Source: Actinomycetota bacterium
GTDB lineage: Bacteria > Actinomycetota > Actinomycetes > Streptosporangiales > Streptosporangiaceae
DNA length: 64,000 nucleotides
Direction of reading: 5' to 3'
NCBI GenBank assembly: GCA_021324595.1
Contig: JAJPIV010000128.1
Location: 1-64,000, forward strand
Numbering within the stretch: position 1 is the first letter of the stretch; every line of letters begins with the position of its first letter. The position numbers were made by a program, and so were the translations under genes. The notes under the pieces are model-generated. The model did not search any database and was not told the origin of the DNA. It saw only the letters and a program-made list of their open reading frames with translations. Shown here piece after piece: positions 21,845 through 32,173 of this stretch.

Positions 21845-23266
21845 ATGTCCGAGGTGTCGTTCGAGCACGCCGACCAGGCGCGCGCGGCGCTGCAGGCGAT
21901 CGTGACCGATCCGCAGCACGGGGTCGCGGCGCTGTCCAGCTCGCAGACGATGGCGAACCTGCTCAAGGACCTGCTGCCGGACGCGCCGCGTGAGAAGAGC
22001 ATCCTGGTGGCGGCGGCCGAGGCGGGCCTGGCGGGCACGCTGCGCGATCACGTGGCGCAGGGCATGGACCCGGCGACGGCGATCCGGCTGGCCGCCTCCT
22101 CGTTCTCCGCCAGCACGCCGTTCACCCCGGACGCCTGCGCCTGGGTGGCGAACGAGCTGGCGATCGCCCTCGGGATCGTCCCGGCGAGCTCCCGGCCCCC
22201 GGCCGGCCCCGGCGCGGCTGCGGCGGCGCCGACGAGCCCGCCCCCCGGGTTCGCCGCCGGGGCGCAGGGGCTGCCGACGCAGGTCGCGCCGGGCGGGGCG
22301 GGCGCTCCGGCAGGCGGGACGCCGCTCGCGGGCGCGCCGATGGGCGGGCCACCAGCGATGGGGGCCGGGTTCGCGCCCGGCCAGTTGCCGACCCAGGGAG
22401 CCGGGCAGCCCCCGCCCGGCCCCACGGGCCCGATGGGCGGGACGCCGGGCGCCTTCGGGGCTTGGCCGGGCGGCGCCCCGGCCGGCTACGGGCAGCCCGG
22501 CTACGGGCAGCCCGGCTACGGGCAGCCCGGAGGGTTCGGGCCCGGAGGGTTCGGGACCGGGCAGCCCCCGGTCAGGCCGCCGAACCGCAGGCGCGGGCTG
22601 GTCATCGGCGGCGGCGCGGCCGCCGTGGTCGTCCTGGCGGTCGTGCTCGCCGTCGCCCTCAGCGGCGGGCCGGGCCCCAAGCCCCGGCCCACGCCCGGGC
22701 CCACGCCCGGCCCGACGACCTCCACCCCGGCGCCGCCGCCGACGGTGGTCGAGCCATTGAGCACAATCATGAACCCGGTCGGCCAGGCCCCGGTGGGCAG
22801 CAACTGCCTGTCGACCGCGAACACCAACCTGAACGGGCTGAACCCGGCCACCGTGGTCGAGGCGCACTTCTGCCCCGGGACGTTCGCGCCGTACGACTCG
22901 AACATCCACGTCTTCGGGTACCAGTTCGACAACGCGGCCGGCTACCAGGCCGGTCTCCGCCACCTCAACAGCTACGCCGGGTTCGACACCGGCGGGCGCC
23001 TCAGCGGCTCCTGCCCGCCGCCGAGCGGCTTCGGGCGCGGCAGCACTCACTGGTGGGCGAACTCCAACCCGCTCTACACCGCCCACCGCCCCGGGCAGAT
23101 CCTGGAGTGCTTCACCGACCACCTCAAGGTGGGCGCGCGGGCGCTCCTGATCTGGACGCTGCCGACCCAGCGGGTCATCTTCGTCGGCGAGGACGCCAAT
23201 AGCGCCGGCTCGGGCGCGAGCGCCTACCTGATCACGTGGTGGAAGCATGTCGCCTATCACACCTGA
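21845..23266 (+). CDS. Single-pass membrane sensor-like protein: helical N-domain, Pro/Gly linker, TM, Cys-containing ectodomain
   Basis: MSEVSFEHADQARAALQ...; PGYGQP linker; TM RRRGLVIGGGAAAVVVLAVVLAVALS; C-terminal ~190 aa with 4 Cys. Confidence 0.78.
   Translation: MSEVSFEHADQARAALQAIVTDPQHGVAALSSSQTMANLLKDLLPDAPREKSILVAAAEAGLAGTLRDHVAQGMDPATAIRLAASSFSASTPFTPDACAWVANELAIALGIVPASSRPPAGPGAAAAAPTSPPPGFAAGAQGLPTQVAPGGAGAPAGGTPLAGAPMGGPPAMGAGFAPGQLPTQGAGQPPPGPTGPMGGTPGAFGAWPGGAPAGYGQPGYGQPGYGQPGGFGPGGFGTGQPPVRPPNRRRGLVIGGGAAAVVVLAVVLAVALSGGPGPKPRPTPGPTPGPTTSTPAPPPTVVEPLSTIMNPVGQAPVGSNCLSTANTNLNGLNPATVVEAHFCPGTFAPYDSNIHVFGYQFDNAAGYQAGLRHLNSYAGFDTGGRLSGSCPPPSGFGRGSTHWWANSNPLYTAHRPGQILECFTDHLKVGARALLIWTLPTQRVIFVGEDANSAGSGASAYLITWWKHVAYHT
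22484..22558 (+). repeat. In-frame 15-nt repeats encoding (GYGQP)3 then GGFGP/GGFGT
   Basis: ggctacgggcagccc x3 (22484-22528) followed by ggagggttcggg[c/a]cc x2. Confidence 0.9.
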
Positions 23267-23272
23267 GCGGCG

Positions 23273-24001
23273 ATGACCGACACGCTGATGCCCGGTGGCG
23301 GGGTCGCCAGGCGCCCGCTGCACTTCATCGTGATGGCCGACTGCTCCGGCTCGATGAAGGGCGAGAAGATGCAGGCGCTGAACTTCGCGCTGCGCTCGAT
23401 GCTGCCGCACCTGGTGGACTGGGAGCGCGACCAGCTGCAGGCGCAGCTGCTGGTCCGCATCCTCGCGTTCGCGACCGCGCCCGCGTGGTTCGTCGCCGAT
23501 CCCACGCCGATCGCCGAGCTCGCCACCCGCTGGCGCAACCTGGAGTACGTGCCGATGGGCCGCACGAACATGGGCCCGGCCTTCCGCGCCGTCGCCGAGG
23601 TGCTCGGGCCGGACCGGCTGGAGCGACGCGCCCTGCGCCCGGCCATCCTGCTGATCACCGACGGGCTGCCGACCGACCCGCCCGGCGGGTTCGAGGCCGG
23701 GCTGGACGCGCTGATGTCGATCGCGGCTGGCCGTTCCGCGCTGCGCCTGGCAGTGGCGATCGGCCGGGACGCCAGCTCCGAGCCGCTTGACCGGTTCCGC
23801 AGCCCCGAGGTGCCGGTGCTGGTGGCCGACGGCACCGACGAGATCGCCGACCGGCTGGTCACCGCATCGATCGCGGTCTCCCGGATGTCGGAGGCCGGCG
23901 TGGACCGGGGCGCCCTCGCGCAGCAGCTCATCCCGGCCGGGAGCGACCCGAGCCGGCCGCGGGACCGGGGCGGTCTCGGCGTGGACGATTCCATCCTGTG
24001 A
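23273..24001 (+). CDS. TerY-like VWA-domain protein
   Basis: Complete MIDAS: MADCSGSMKG, GRTNMGPAF, LITDGLPTD. Confidence 0.9.
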   Translation: MTDTLMPGGGVARRPLHFIVMADCSGSMKGEKMQALNFALRSMLPHLVDWERDQLQAQLLVRILAFATAPAWFVADPTPIAELATRWRNLEYVPMGRTNMGPAFRAVAEVLGPDRLERRALRPAILLITDGLPTDPPGGFEAGLDALMSIAAGRSALRLAVAIGRDASSEPLDRFRSPEVPVLVADGTDEIADRLVTASIAVSRMSEAGVDRGALAQQLIPAGSDPSRPRDRGGLGVDDSIL

Positions 24002-25047
24002 TGACCAGGTCCGGATGGCTCGTGCTGACCGCCTCCGCCCGGGGCGCCTCGCACGTCGCCATGGACACGCCGAACCAGGACGCGGTCGGGACCGGGCCGG
24101 CGGGACCGGACGGCGTGGTCGCGGCGGTCGCCGACGGCCACGGGCACTGGCGCCACCTGCGCAGCGCCCGCGGGTCGCGGCTCGCGGTCACGGTCGGCTG
24201 CCAGGTCGGCACGGAGCTCGCCGGGCGGCTGCCGGCCAGCCCCGACGCCGCGGCGGTGACCGGGCTGCTGACCGGGTTCGCCGTCCCCGCGATCATCACG
24301 CGGTGGCGGGACGCGGTGCTCGCCGACCTGGCCGGGGATCCGTTCACCAGCGCCGAGCAGGAGCGGCGCCTGCCGGGCGACGACCCGGTGATCGCCTACG
24401 GCTCGACTCTGCTGCTCGCCGTGGCCGTGCGGGAGTGGCTGGCGATCGCGCAGATCGGCGACGGGGACGTCATCGGCGTGCGCGCCGACGGACGGGCCGA
24501 CCTTCCGGTCCCCGGCGACCCGAACCTGGACGGGCTGGTGACGACCAGCCTGTGCGGCGCCGATCCGGCCGGGGACTTCCGGGTCGCGGCGGTCGACACC
24601 GCCCGAGTCCCGTTGCTCGCGCTGCTGCTCGCCACCGACGGCTACGGCAACGCCCAGGTGGCGCAGGAGTGGCCGGAGGCGTTCAGCAGGGACCTCGCCG
24701 GCATGCTGCGCAACCGGGATGAGCAGTGGCTGGCCAGCCAGCTGCCGGCCTGGGCGGCCCGGTGCGCCTCGGGCGACGGCAGCGCCGACGACACCACGGT
24801 CGCGTTGCTGATCTCCCCGGCGGGCCGGCCTCCGCTGGCGGCCACCCCGCCGGGCAGCACCGGGCGGGATGGCGACCTGGACGAGGAGGAGACCACGATC
24901 CCCGCCTCGCGCGGCGACACGGTGCCGAGCTCGCCCGTCCCGGCCGAGCCGGACGCGGCCTGGCAAGCCGCGGCGCCCACCGCCGGCGAGCGGGCGGCGG
25001 AGCGGCCAGGGCCGGGCGGCCAGGGCCGGGCGGGAGGCGCCCGGTGA
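23998..25047 (+). CDS. PP2C-family serine/threonine phosphatase with acidic/Thr-rich C-terminal tail
   Basis: PNQDAVG, VAAVADGHGH, IGDGDVIGV, LATDGYG, SADDTTVALL; tail DGDLDEEETTIPASRGDTVP. Confidence 0.87.
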   Translation: MMTRSGWLVLTASARGASHVAMDTPNQDAVGTGPAGPDGVVAAVADGHGHWRHLRSARGSRLAVTVGCQVGTELAGRLPASPDAAAVTGLLTGFAVPAIITRWRDAVLADLAGDPFTSAEQERRLPGDDPVIAYGSTLLLAVAVREWLAIAQIGDGDVIGVRADGRADLPVPGDPNLDGLVTTSLCGADPAGDFRVAAVDTARVPLLALLLATDGYGNAQVAQEWPEAFSRDLAGMLRNRDEQWLASQLPAWAARCASGDGSADDTTVALLISPAGRPPLAATPPGSTGRDGDLDEEETTIPASRGDTVPSSPVPAEPDAAWQAAAPTAGERAAERPGPGGQGRAGGAR

Positions 25048-26351
25048 GCGGCCAGCAGGTCAGCCTGCTGGGCAGGACGCTGCGGATGGTCCGGGCGGGG
25101 ACTCCCGTGGTGGTCGGCGAGCGGCTCGGCGAGGGCGGCCAGGGCGTGGTGCACGCCGTCACCATCGGCGGTGCCCCCTACGCGGTCAAGTGGTACCGGT
25201 ACGCCTCCCCCGAGCTGCGACGGAACATCGAGGCGCTGATCGAGCGCGGCCGCCCGCACCGGGACTTCTGCTGGCCGATCGACCTGGTGACCAGCGACGA
25301 GCTCTCCGGGTTCGGCTACGTGATGCCCCGCCTCGATCCGCGGTTCACCTCCTTCGCCCAGCTGGTCGCGCGCCCCCAGCAGCCGCCGTTCCGGGTGGTG
25401 ATCACGATCGGCCGCCATCTGGTCACGGCGTTCGAGGCACTGCACGCGGCCGGGCTGTGCTACCGGGACATCAGCTTCGGGAACCTGTGGGTGGACCCGG
25501 ACCGCGCCGAGGTCGCCATCATCGACAACGACAACTGCGGCCAGGACGGCGGCGAGGTCTTCGTCTGGGGCACGCTCCGGTTCATGGCCCCCGAGGTGGT
25601 CCGGCGCGAGGCCGCCCCGACCAGCCTCACCGACCTGCATTCGCTCGCGGTGTTCCTGTTCTACCTGTTCATGCACGGCCACCCGCTGGAGGGAGTGAGG
25701 ACCGACAAGTCCTACTCGTGGGCGGACGAGGCGCACCGCAGCGAGACCGACCTGGCGACGCTCCACTTCGGCACCGAGCCGGTCTTCATCTTCGACCCGG
25801 TCGACCACTCCAACCCGCCGCGCCCCGGCGACCCGGTCAGCGTGTGGTGGAGCCTGTACCCGAGGTTCTTCCGGTCGGTCTTCGAGCGCGCGTTCACCTC
25901 CGGACTGCGCGACCCGTCCGGCCTCGGCCGGGTCCCCGAGGGCGTGTGGCGGCGAGCCCTGGTCAGGCTGGCGGACTGCGTGTCGGTCTGCTCCTGCCAG
26001 GCGTCGGTCTTCGTGGACCCGGACGATCCCGGCCTGCGCTGCTGGAACTGCAAGCAGGTGCCGCCCCGTCCGCCGATGCTCCAGCTACCGACCTGCGCGG
26101 TGGCACTCACCCCGGGCGCCACGATCACGCCGCACCACCTGAGCCGGAACCGGGATTACGACACTGCGGTCGCGGTCGTCGAGAACCACCCGTCCCGGCC
26201 CGGCGAGGTCGTCCTGCGCAACGTCGGCCGCACGCCATGGACGATGACGCCGGACGGGGAGGCGTCCAAGATCGTCGAGCCCGACCGCAGGCTCGGCGTC
26301 CGCCCGATGGTCATCGACTTCGGGCCCGCGACCGGAAAGATCATCGTGTGA
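25044..26351 (+). CDS. Serine/threonine kinase-like protein with C-terminal zinc ribbon (TerY-P triad type)
   Basis: GTG 25044 (GTGA overlap with PP2C); GEGGQGVVHAV loop, YAVKWY, CYRDISFGN catalytic loop, IDNDN metal site, APE-like MAPEVV; CxC...CWNC zinc ribbon. Confidence 0.88.
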   Translation: MSGQQVSLLGRTLRMVRAGTPVVVGERLGEGGQGVVHAVTIGGAPYAVKWYRYASPELRRNIEALIERGRPHRDFCWPIDLVTSDELSGFGYVMPRLDPRFTSFAQLVARPQQPPFRVVITIGRHLVTAFEALHAAGLCYRDISFGNLWVDPDRAEVAIIDNDNCGQDGGEVFVWGTLRFMAPEVVRREAAPTSLTDLHSLAVFLFYLFMHGHPLEGVRTDKSYSWADEAHRSETDLATLHFGTEPVFIFDPVDHSNPPRPGDPVSVWWSLYPRFFRSVFERAFTSGLRDPSGLGRVPEGVWRRALVRLADCVSVCSCQASVFVDPDDPGLRCWNCKQVPPRPPMLQLPTCAVALTPGATITPHHLSRNRDYDTAVAVVENHPSRPGEVVLRNVGRTPWTMTPDGEASKIVEPDRRLGVRPMVIDFGPATGKIIV

Positions 26352-26373: not shown

Positions 26374-27888
26374 ATGAGCGAGCTGCTGCTGACCTACGAC
26401 AACCGGCTCTACCGGTTCGCCCCGGGGACCATCCGGATCGGCCGGAGCTCGGAGAGCGACATCGTGGTGCCCGACCCCACGGTGTCCCGCCGCCACGCGG
26501 AGCTGTCGTTCGAGGATCCCAGCGGCTGGGTCTGGCAGAACGCCGGCCAGTCGCCGACGTTCCTCAACGGCCAGCCGGTCGCCAGGTTCGTCGCGACGGG
26601 GACCGTGGACGTCCACCTCGCCTCGCCCCATGGCCCGGTCATCCGCCTGGAGGTGGTGCCGATGCCGGCGCAGGCCCCGGTGCGGACCGAACTCGCCGCG
26701 CCGCCCGGGCTCGCCCCCGCGACCCACCAGCCCGGCCCGCCCGCAGCGGCAGCCGCCCAGGCCGTCCCCCCGGCACCGGGCATGGCGCCCGCCGGGCCGC
26801 CGGGCACGCCCGGGGCCGGTCCCGTGCCCGGGGCGGCCCCGCCCGGCATGCCGGGCTACGGGGCTATGCCGGGAATGCCCGGGGCGATGCCGGGAATGCC
26901 CGGGGCGATGCCGGGCTACGGTCCGGTGCCGGGCGGCCCGCCCGGGGGGCAGCTGAACGCGGGCTCGTTCTTCGAGACGCTGATCCCGGTCAAGAGCTGG
27001 CTGCACGACCCGGGCTGGCGGCAGTGGCTGCGCCTGCTGATCATCCCGTATGCCCTGCTTCCGCTGATCTTCCTGCAGATCTTCTCCACCGCGCACTCGC
27101 TGTCCACCCCGGGCTGGGCGTACAGCATCTACGTCGCCCCGCTGTGGTTCATCGTGTTCTGGTACCTGACGCGCCCGCCGCGGTGGCACTGGGTGCCCGA
27201 GGGAGTGATCGCGGCGGGGATCGTGGTCTGGGAATGGATCTGGCTGCACGCGGTCACCATCAACATCAACGACCACCTGGCCAGCGGGACGCTCAACTTC
27301 GGCAAGGCCCTGATCGTGGGCTACAACGAGGAGATCAGCAAGGCCCTCCCCGTGCTCGTCGCGGCGCTGGCGCTGCTCGGGGTCAGGAAGCAGAAGCTGG
27401 ACCCGCGGACGTGGATGCTCATGGGCACGATCGCCGGGCTGACCTTCGGGATCATCGAGCAGTCGCTGTACACCCCGGGCGCGATCATCATGGTCCACGG
27501 GGCGCAGAACATCCCGCAGGCCGACGCCGGGGCACTGGACTTCGCGTTCCGGGTGTTCGTCGACGGCTTCCAGCACGCGGTCTGGGCGGGCGTGTCCGGG
27601 TTCTTCGTCGGCATGGCGGTCAACTATCGCCGGCGCCGCGTGCCCCTGCTGCTGCTCGGCATCACCATCCCGGCGGTGCTGCACGCGCTCAACGACTGGA
27701 CCCTGACGATCTTCAGCACCGTCTGGGTGACCGTGTTCCTCGTCCAGGGCGTGTCGCTGCTGCTCTTCCTCGGCTACACGCTGTCGGCCGCGACGATCGA
27801 GCGGAAGGTGCGCAGGAACCCGGCGTTCCGCGGGGAGTCGATCCTGATGGACCGGTTCAGCAGCCTGCCCGGGGGCCAGCAGTCCTGA
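26374..27888 (+). CDS. FHA domain fused to PrsW-family intramembrane protease
   Basis: FHA: IRIGRSSESDIVVPDPTVSRRHAEL...FLNGQPV; PrsW: YNEEISKALPV (EExxK), TFGIIEQSLY (FxxxE), FQHAVWAGVSGFFVG, HALNDW. Confidence 0.9.
   Translation: MSELLLTYDNRLYRFAPGTIRIGRSSESDIVVPDPTVSRRHAELSFEDPSGWVWQNAGQSPTFLNGQPVARFVATGTVDVHLASPHGPVIRLEVVPMPAQAPVRTELAAPPGLAPATHQPGPPAAAAAQAVPPAPGMAPAGPPGTPGAGPVPGAAPPGMPGYGAMPGMPGAMPGMPGAMPGYGPVPGGPPGGQLNAGSFFETLIPVKSWLHDPGWRQWLRLLIIPYALLPLIFLQIFSTAHSLSTPGWAYSIYVAPLWFIVFWYLTRPPRWHWVPEGVIAAGIVVWEWIWLHAVTININDHLASGTLNFGKALIVGYNEEISKALPVLVAALALLGVRKQKLDPRTWMLMGTIAGLTFGIIEQSLYTPGAIIMVHGAQNIPQADAGALDFAFRVFVDGFQHAVWAGVSGFFVGMAVNYRRRRVPLLLLGITIPAVLHALNDWTLTIFSTVWVTVFLVQGVSLLLFLGYTLSAATIERKVRRNPAFRGESILMDRFSSLPGGQQS
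26866..26907 (+). repeat. Two 21-nt in-frame repeats encoding MPGMPGA
   Basis: atgccgggaatgcccggggcg x2. Confidence 0.85.
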
Positions 27889-30628: not shown

Positions 30629-32173
30629 TCAGGCTATCGGCAGGATCGGCTCCGCACTGCCGTCCCCGCCCGCGCCGTCCCCGCCCGCGCCGTCCCCGCC
30701 CGCGCCGTCCCCGCCCGCGCCGTGGCCGCCCGCGCCGTGGCCGCCCGCGCCGTGGCCGCCCGAGTGGGCCCTGCCCCGCCGGGTGATGACCGCGGCCAGC
30801 GCCGCCAGGGCGGCCAGCGCGATCATGGTGAGCCGGCCGCCGGCCGCCTCGCCGGCCGCCAGCGCACCCCCGGCGCCGCCGACCCCGGCCAGGTGCAGGC
30901 TCAGCGTGACCAGCGCGACGCCGAACGCGGTGCCGAGCCCACGCGCCATGTTCACCATGCCGCCTGTCGTCGCCGCGCTGGCCGCCGGGACGGCACCCAT
31001 GACCTGGGAGTTGTTGGCCGGGATGTACGTGCCCAGGCCGAACCCGAGCAGGGCGAGCAGGGCTGCGGCCTGCCCCGGCCCGGGTGCCCCGGCCAGGCCG
31101 AGCAGCACGGCGGCGAGCACCGCCACCGCCCCTCCGGCCCAGCAGCGCAGGTGATCCGGCCAGGACGGGACCAGGCGCTCGGTCAGGACCGCGCCGAGCG
31201 CGAACCCGGCGGGCAGCGCGGTCAGCAGCAGGCCGGTGGTGACCCCCTGGCCGGCGCGCAGGATCTGCGGGTAGAGCACCAGCGGCCCGAACAGCACCAT
31301 GTAGGCGGCGAGCGCGCCCGCCAGGCCACGGCCCACGCCCGGGATCCTCAGCAGCGCCTCGTCGATGAGCGGCTGGCGGGCACGGCGTTCCCACCGCACC
31401 AGCCCGGCCGTGCCCGCCACCGCGAGCACGGCCAGCGCGGCCACGGCGCCGGCTGGTAGGCGCAGCCCGGAGGCAGCCGAGGTGGCCAGCAGCAGGCCGG
31501 TCACCGCGACCGCGAGCAGCGCCATGCCGGCCGGGTCGGTCCCGGCGCTCGCGGCCCGCTGCCGGGTGCGGGGCAGCAGGAAGATGCCGGTCACGATGGC
31601 GAGCACGCCGACCGGCGGGTTGATCAGGAACACCCAGCGCCAGCCCGCCGACGCCACGATCAGCCCGCCCACGCTCGGCCCCAGCGCGAGCCCGGCCGCC
31701 TGGGCGACCGCCTGGACGCCCAGCGCCTTCCGGCGCAGGCTCGCCCCCACGCTGGTGCTCACCAGCGCGATGCTGTTCGCCTGCAGCAGCGCGGCGCCAC
31801 CGGCCTGCACCACGCGGGCGCCGATCAGCCAGGTCAGCGAGGGAGCCAGCCCGCAGACGGCCGAGGCCACGCTGAACAGCGCGAACCCGTACAGGTACAG
31901 GAGCTTGCGGCCGGCCCGGTCCGACCACCGGCCCACCGGGATCAGCAGCGCCACCAGCGCGAGCAGGTAGCTCAGCGACACCCACTGCACGCCGGCCAGC
32001 CCGGTGCCGAACTGCCGCTGCAGCGCGGGGAAGGCGAGGGTGACGATGCTCGCGTCCAGCTGCCCCATGAACGCGCCGAAGCAGACGACCGTGACCGCCA
32101 GCCACGGCGCCCACGGATGCTCCCGCACGATCCGCGGGCGGGCGGGCTCGGCGACGAGCGCCCGCATGTTCAT
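30629..32173 (-). CDS. MFS transporter (DHA2-type drug exporter family)
   Basis: FMGQLDASIVTLAFPALQRQF...GRWSDRAGRKLLYLYG; start MNMRALV 32173. Confidence 0.88.
   Translation of the reverse strand: MNMRALVAEPARPRIVREHPWAPWLAVTVVCFGAFMGQLDASIVTLAFPALQRQFGTGLAGVQWVSLSYLLALVALLIPVGRWSDRAGRKLLYLYGFALFSVASAVCGLAPSLTWLIGARVVQAGGAALLQANSIALVSTSVGASLRRKALGVQAVAQAAGLALGPSVGGLIVASAGWRWVFLINPPVGVLAIVTGIFLLPRTRQRAASAGTDPAGMALLAVAVTGLLLATSAASGLRLPAGAVAALAVLAVAGTAGLVRWERRARQPLIDEALLRIPGVGRGLAGALAAYMVLFGPLVLYPQILRAGQGVTTGLLLTALPAGFALGAVLTERLVPSWPDHLRCWAGGAVAVLAAVLLGLAGAPGPGQAAALLALLGFGLGTYIPANNSQVMGAVPAASAATTGGMVNMARGLGTAFGVALVTLSLHLAGVGGAGGALAAGEAAGGRLTMIALAALAALAAVITRRGRAHSGGHGAGGHGAGGHGAGGDGAGGDGAGGDGAGGDGSAEPILPIA
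30661..30762 (-). repeat. 15-nt tandem repeats encoding (GAGGD)/(GAGGH) C-terminal tail of MFS transporter
   Basis: cgtccccgcccgcgc x4 (30661-30720) then cgtggccgcccgcgc x2 plus partial. Confidence 0.92.

Follow-up and report, generated by a model that had tools for sequence, protein, structure and literature searches.

On sequence comparison, the C-terminal tail of the PP2C-type phosphatase encoded in the window (the whole 64,000-nucleotide stretch that was analysed) carries a real conserved linear motif that exceeds what chance would produce. The motif is centred on threonine 300 (T300) and is best read as a phospho-switch. The explanation that fits best as a whole, favoured here only tentatively, is that of a functional motif that would be phosphorylated by the neighbouring kinase, reversed by the phosphatase and docked on a co-encoded FHA protease. 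A single conserved tail threonine would tie the vWA-PP2C-kinase triad, precisely and testably, to an FHA-fused membrane protease. If the explanation is true, it would also show how Ser/Thr phosphorylation couples to regulated membrane proteolysis in actinobacteria.

The phosphatase gene lies on the + strand among adjacent genes in the order UP, vWA, PP2C, kinase and FHA-PrsW (Table 1), with the kinase start codon overlapping the PP2C stop. The vWA gene, an intact PP2C and an intact zinc-ribbon kinase are found side by side, as in the triads of PMC7159879 (theme 3). Catalytic sequence motifs are intact in kinase, PP2C and PrsW; in the multi-span domain of PrsW, NEEISK, FGIIE and HALND represent the EExxK, FxxxE and HxxxD-type motifs. 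Pfam matches and motifs bear out the earlier note in placing a kinase, with its catalytic motifs intact, and a fusion of FHA with PrsW next to the phosphatase. The vWA protein is 83% identical across same-genus loci, and the nearest named relative is a MAG from the Streptosporangiaceae, in the same genus. The kinase carries a zinc-ribbon-like CxC...CxxC segment (CSC...CWNC) and a C-terminal domain. When activation segments are compared across the triad loci, that of the window kinase has as its sole Thr/Ser the one in the WGT before APE, so it offers no obvious competing phosphothreonine dock.

Table 1. Features of the operon and of the phosphatase tail in the window
Feature	Positions	Strand	Basis or detail
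UP, single-pass membrane protein	21845..23266	+	ORF and translation; Pfam family none
vWA (TerY-like) protein of the triad	23273..24001	+	PF13519 E 1e-5, just below the curated cut-off
PP2C-type phosphatase, 349 aa	23998..25047	+	PF13672 E 1e-24; DGHG, GDGD, TDG and DD motifs
C-terminal tail of PP2C, residues 277-349	24826..25044	+	Composition, pLDDT, tail alignment
Stretch first reported, DLDEEETTIPASRGDTVPSSP	24874..24936	+	PP2C residues 293-313
Conserved motif EETTIPA, residues 297-303	24886..24906	+	T300 codon 24895-24897
Second acidic-T-[IV]-P copy GDTVP, residues 306-310	24913..24927	+	Tail alignment; form seen in second genus (ADTVPVP)
Protein kinase	25044..26351	+	PF00069 E 2e-12; Lys, YRD Asp, Asn and DND Asp present
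FHA-PrsW fusion	26374..27888	+	FHA, P/G-rich linker, PrsW intramembrane protease; PF13367 E 1e-15, above cut-off
FHA domain of FHA-PrsW	26374..26664	+	PF00498 E 2e-11

In UP, for which no Pfam match was found, a conserved N-terminal domain is followed by a P/G/Q linker bearing LPTQ sites, a single transmembrane segment and a Cys-containing outer domain. The N-terminal domain is common to loci L014-L016 and L036-L038. Most Streptosporangiaceae triads include UP, and at L017 the kinase is adjoined by a multi-span relative of UP with EETVRPG in its linker. UP is a candidate substrate of PrsW. Elsewhere in the window, at ~30630-30780 on the - strand, the ORF of an MFS-type transporter terminates in a GGHGAGG/GGDGAGG tandem repeat.

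The Pfam match of PP2C reaches residue 249, with the conserved core extending to about residues 271-276. The 73-residue tail that follows is enriched in P, A, G, D and E, and 77% of it consists of A, R, G, Q, S, P, E or K, compared with 52% of the core. It has the lowest AlphaFold confidence of the PP2C model (pLDDT 24-35) and no secondary structure, in a model that is poor overall (mean pLDDT 49) because its alignment had two sequences only. A sequence search of the PDB found no relative of PP2C. Composition and model suggest that the tail is probably disordered. The stretch in which the earlier note had proposed an FHA-docking phosphothreonine motif matches the translation exactly and is confirmed to lie in this tail, beyond the core.

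Within the genus, three orthologous tails read EETTIPA, DETTIPA and DEITIPA at 24-29 residues beyond the core, and the rest of the tail is mostly different. The kept block, [DE]-E-[TI]-T-I-P-A, is matched as well in 0/2000 shuffled tails at width 7 and in 2/2000 at widths 6 and 8, figures that slightly overstate the case because shuffling ignores shared descent. As a DNA pattern, [DE]E[T/I/M]TIP has one match each in genomes G000, G001 and G003, always in the PP2C tail; the reversed control gave 0 matches, as did the pattern in three other genomes. The threonine of T-I-P, T300, is invariant, and T299 is replaced by Ile in L014 (G003). Conservation of the tail motif, which the earlier note had made a check on its proposal, is upheld by the three orthologues for a threonine-centred motif, but the note's assignment of the core to an acidic ETT is wrong, since it is the second threonine that is conserved. 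ETT is ruled out as the core by EIT in L014, YET in L017 and ADT in a second genus. The nearby GDTVP copy is reduced to GDT in L013 and is missing from L014. The tail peptide EEETTIPASRGDTVP takes in T299, T300 and T308.

A single PP2C sequence used as query had found one relative, and a PP2C profile was used to search the genomes. The profile matches 11 of the 343 genomes of the family and few elsewhere, which indicates that the triad is sporadic. T-I-P is also found 24-33 residues beyond the core in L017 (AYETIPAA), L019 (SGTIPLD) and L038 (PTIPIT), in the last two without an acidic residue; the PP2C tails of L015, L016, L018, L036 and L037 lack it. Pairwise similarity of the window tail to that of L017, L019 or L038 is not significant. 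The second genus, from another family (f28/g107), has PP2C in 24/121 genomes, and most of these tails terminate in RPDLADTVPVPE or close variants, e.g. RPDLADTIPTP. RPDLxDT[VI]P occurs near the end of eleven of these PP2Cs, in two copies in one of them (L103), and a related E-L-A-[DN]-T-L in four. Taking one representative of each lineage, T[VI]P falls within 45 residues of the core in 4/20 compared with 0.52 expected from shuffled tails (P 7.5e-4), a result that is supportive rather than conclusive because the test was defined after part of the data had been seen and treats I and V alike.

That the motif reflects chance or shared descent, in a neutral tail still undiverged among congeneric genomes, is the least probable of the explanations weighed here. 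The same-genus orthologues number only three, related tails share residues by descent, and T[VI]P is not rare in P/T-rich tails (shuffle p 0.02-0.2); yet outside the block these tails have mostly changed, hardly any shuffle equals the block, and an equivalent motif is kept in the second genus. The tail could also contribute its acidic residues, as an unphosphorylated peptide that binds the vWA domain or the kinase and holds the triad together. vWA domains can bind acidic residues via their metal site, and vWA and kinase genes occur together with PP2C at every motif-bearing locus. It is nevertheless very improbable that this is the role of the tail, the residues strictly kept being T-I-P, which L019 and L038 retain with no acidic residue.

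In the g107 triads (L042, L089-L105) the kinase gene is adjoined by a gene for an FHA-FHA-trypsin membrane protein. Between lineages the FHA-fused protease is exchanged, being PrsW or trypsin-like, and the triad stays. Among kinase-containing triads, T[VI]P is found in 16/25 whose locus includes an FHA gene compared with 1/11 whose locus has none (Fisher p 0.003), in a table whose rows are phylogenetically clustered. The PP2C tree shows 6 label changes for the motif, clustering strong enough to make the effective sample for this association small. Sister contrasts are mixed. The window trio, with FHA gene and motif, differs as expected from L016, the closest sister that has a full neighbourhood but no FHA gene, which lacks the motif too. 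Two contrasts disagree: L038 has the motif and L036 and L037 do not, all three with FHA-trypsin (genes identified by tblastn in L036 and L037), and the main g107 group differs from L091, L098 and L102, all FHA-positive. The check set by the earlier note, conservation of the motif in operons that include an FHA gene, agrees with the overall counts, but is weakened by the clustering and by the mixed contrasts. A rule by which an FHA gene implies the motif is rejected, with the FHA-positive triads that lack T[VI]P (L036, L037, L091, L098 and L102) as counter-examples; the FHA-positive L042, L094, L100 and L101 have the variants TL or TVE. At L018 FHA-PrsW adjoins a PP2C without the motif and the kinase is absent from the locus. 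L017 has ETIPA and no FHA gene at the locus, with FHA-PrsW elsewhere in the same genome. In L016, whose triad is without FHA gene and motif, the vWA gene (L016:10054-10729) is split over two frames, as a pseudogene or through an assembly frameshift.

The FHA domain of the window protein is recognized by Pfam (Table 1) and modelled with a pLDDT of 91. Its best structural match is the first FHA domain of Rv1747 (6ccd, TM 0.83/0.90), followed by FhaA and GarA. The binding-loop residues G23, R24, S38 and H41 are present, R24 and S38 being those that contact phosphate. The canonical Asn through which FHA domains touch the peptide backbone (Rad53 N107, Rv1747 N69; PMC5549992) is absent, the Asn-Gly being replaced by Ser60-Pro61. 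Phosphate contacts are thus kept and one canonical ligand contact is lost. In the other FHA-PrsW proteins examined, whether linked to a triad or orphan, the same position is A, G or D, and the Asn-Gly of the proteins examined is replaced by Ser-Pro, Ala-Pro, Gly-Arg and similar pairs. FHA-PrsW is a plausible candidate reader of the tail, were it phosphorylated, with moderate odds.

A second FHA-PrsW paralogue (G000:C163:10654-12177, L084; also L085 and L086) adjoins a gene for an AurF-like diiron protein, with no triad present, an arrangement conserved in three same-genus genomes. Such paralogues away from any triad suggest that FHA-PrsW has clients other than PP2C. Other candidate threonines lie close to hand, LPTQ in UP and TEL in the FHA-PrsW linker, and the FHA domain could read one of these, whether in UP or, in the fashion of GarA, at T-E-L/T-E-A of its own linker, leaving the PP2C motif to serve something else. 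UP has LPTQVAP and LPTQGAG in the window and PT[RAVI] sites in L014, L015 and L016, the linker sequence V[RK]TELAA is conserved in the window and L021, and orphan FHA-PrsW proteins occur without PP2C. This alternative is unlikely: the sites lie in low-complexity P/G/Q linkers where their apparent conservation may reflect composition, and conservation of the PP2C tail would be left unexplained.

Taking together the conserved motif, its genomic context and the intact catalytic motifs, we infer how docking on the FHA protease could proceed. The functional element would be a short linear motif, [DE]-x-T-[IV]-P, in the PP2C tail. Most likely the co-encoded kinase would phosphorylate T300 and PP2C could take the phosphate off. 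In mycobacteria, phosphothreonine sites tend to have acidic neighbours, and a stretch phosphorylated in PknL is an ETT (PMC6554272). The phosphorylated tail would then be bound by the FHA domain of the membrane protease encoded with it, which is FHA-PrsW in the window and FHA-FHA-trypsin in the second genus, and docking would draw the phosphatase to the membrane for as long as the kinase is active. Phosphorylation state would in this way be coupled to proteolysis of a membrane protein, with UP as a possible target and, in relatives, a membrane-anchored PP2C. In L019 a membrane span follows the motif within PP2C itself, and docking would there deliver a single-pass protein to PrsW; in the window UP could fill this role. 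It is a more speculative extension, and a somewhat doubtful one, that actinobacteria share a general module in which the kinase writes and PP2C both carries and erases a T-[IV]-P tag that docks the phosphatase on an exchangeable FHA-protease, with phosphorylation timing membrane proteolysis.

The tail threonine might instead be a phosphosite that tunes the phosphatase itself, through its activity, localisation or stability, with no FHA reader. A precedent is PstP, whose activity is raised when it is phosphorylated by PknA/PknB. The acidic context of the tail threonine is typical of actinobacterial sites and of kinase-phosphatase feedback (PMC6554272). The motif of L017, which has no local FHA gene, and the canonical Asn missing from the FHA domain would also fit self-regulation, against which stand the skew of the motif to loci with an FHA gene and the long, probably disordered tail, better suited to docking than to a regulator of the active site. 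Self-regulation is rated as somewhat unlikely, and docking on the FHA protease is retained as the preferred reading.

Both the triad and FHA-PrsW fusions are already known, and the tail motif is without a prior paper in the literature searched, which left out most subscription journals. The same search found no paper on TerY-P style triads with PP2C and no study of what vWA-PP2C-kinase triads act on. vWA-PP2C-kinase gene sets, in which the kinase has a zinc ribbon and a beta domain, are known from actinobacterial GAP1-N2 systems (eLife 2020, PMC7159879), whose FHA and PP2C passages make no mention of the tail motif. The GAP1-N2 triads resemble the window triad in having the three gene types adjacent, an active kinase and PP2C, and a kinase with a zinc ribbon and an extra C-terminal domain. 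They differ in that the window triad has an FHA-PrsW protease on its 3' side. FHA-PrsW fusions have been described as likely signalling versions of the protease (Biol Direct 2012, PMC3482391); unlike those, the window fusion is tied by its operon to its own kinase-phosphatase-vWA triad.

The earlier note had likened the tail to the phospho-switch of GarA/OdhI. An acidic residue followed by Thr in an unstructured extension, and a related FHA fold, are common to both. The ETTS of GarA, however, is phosphorylated mainly on its first Thr and lies within the N-terminal extension of the FHA protein itself (PMC5448819), whereas the window motif lies in a partner phosphatase, its first Thr is Ile in L014 and it is the second that is conserved. 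The analogy is for this reason limited to an acidic-Thr disordered tail near an FHA domain. Another parallel is Rv1747, the FHA-1 domain of which has the most similar structure and binds pT237 of Rv2623, with V at +3 (PMC5549992). As proposed here, a phosphothreonine followed by a hydrophobic +3 residue is captured intermolecularly by the FHA domain of a membrane protein. In contrast to the window FHA domain, which has Ser60, Rv1747 retains the canonical Asn, and the ligand proposed for the window domain is the tail of a phosphatase.
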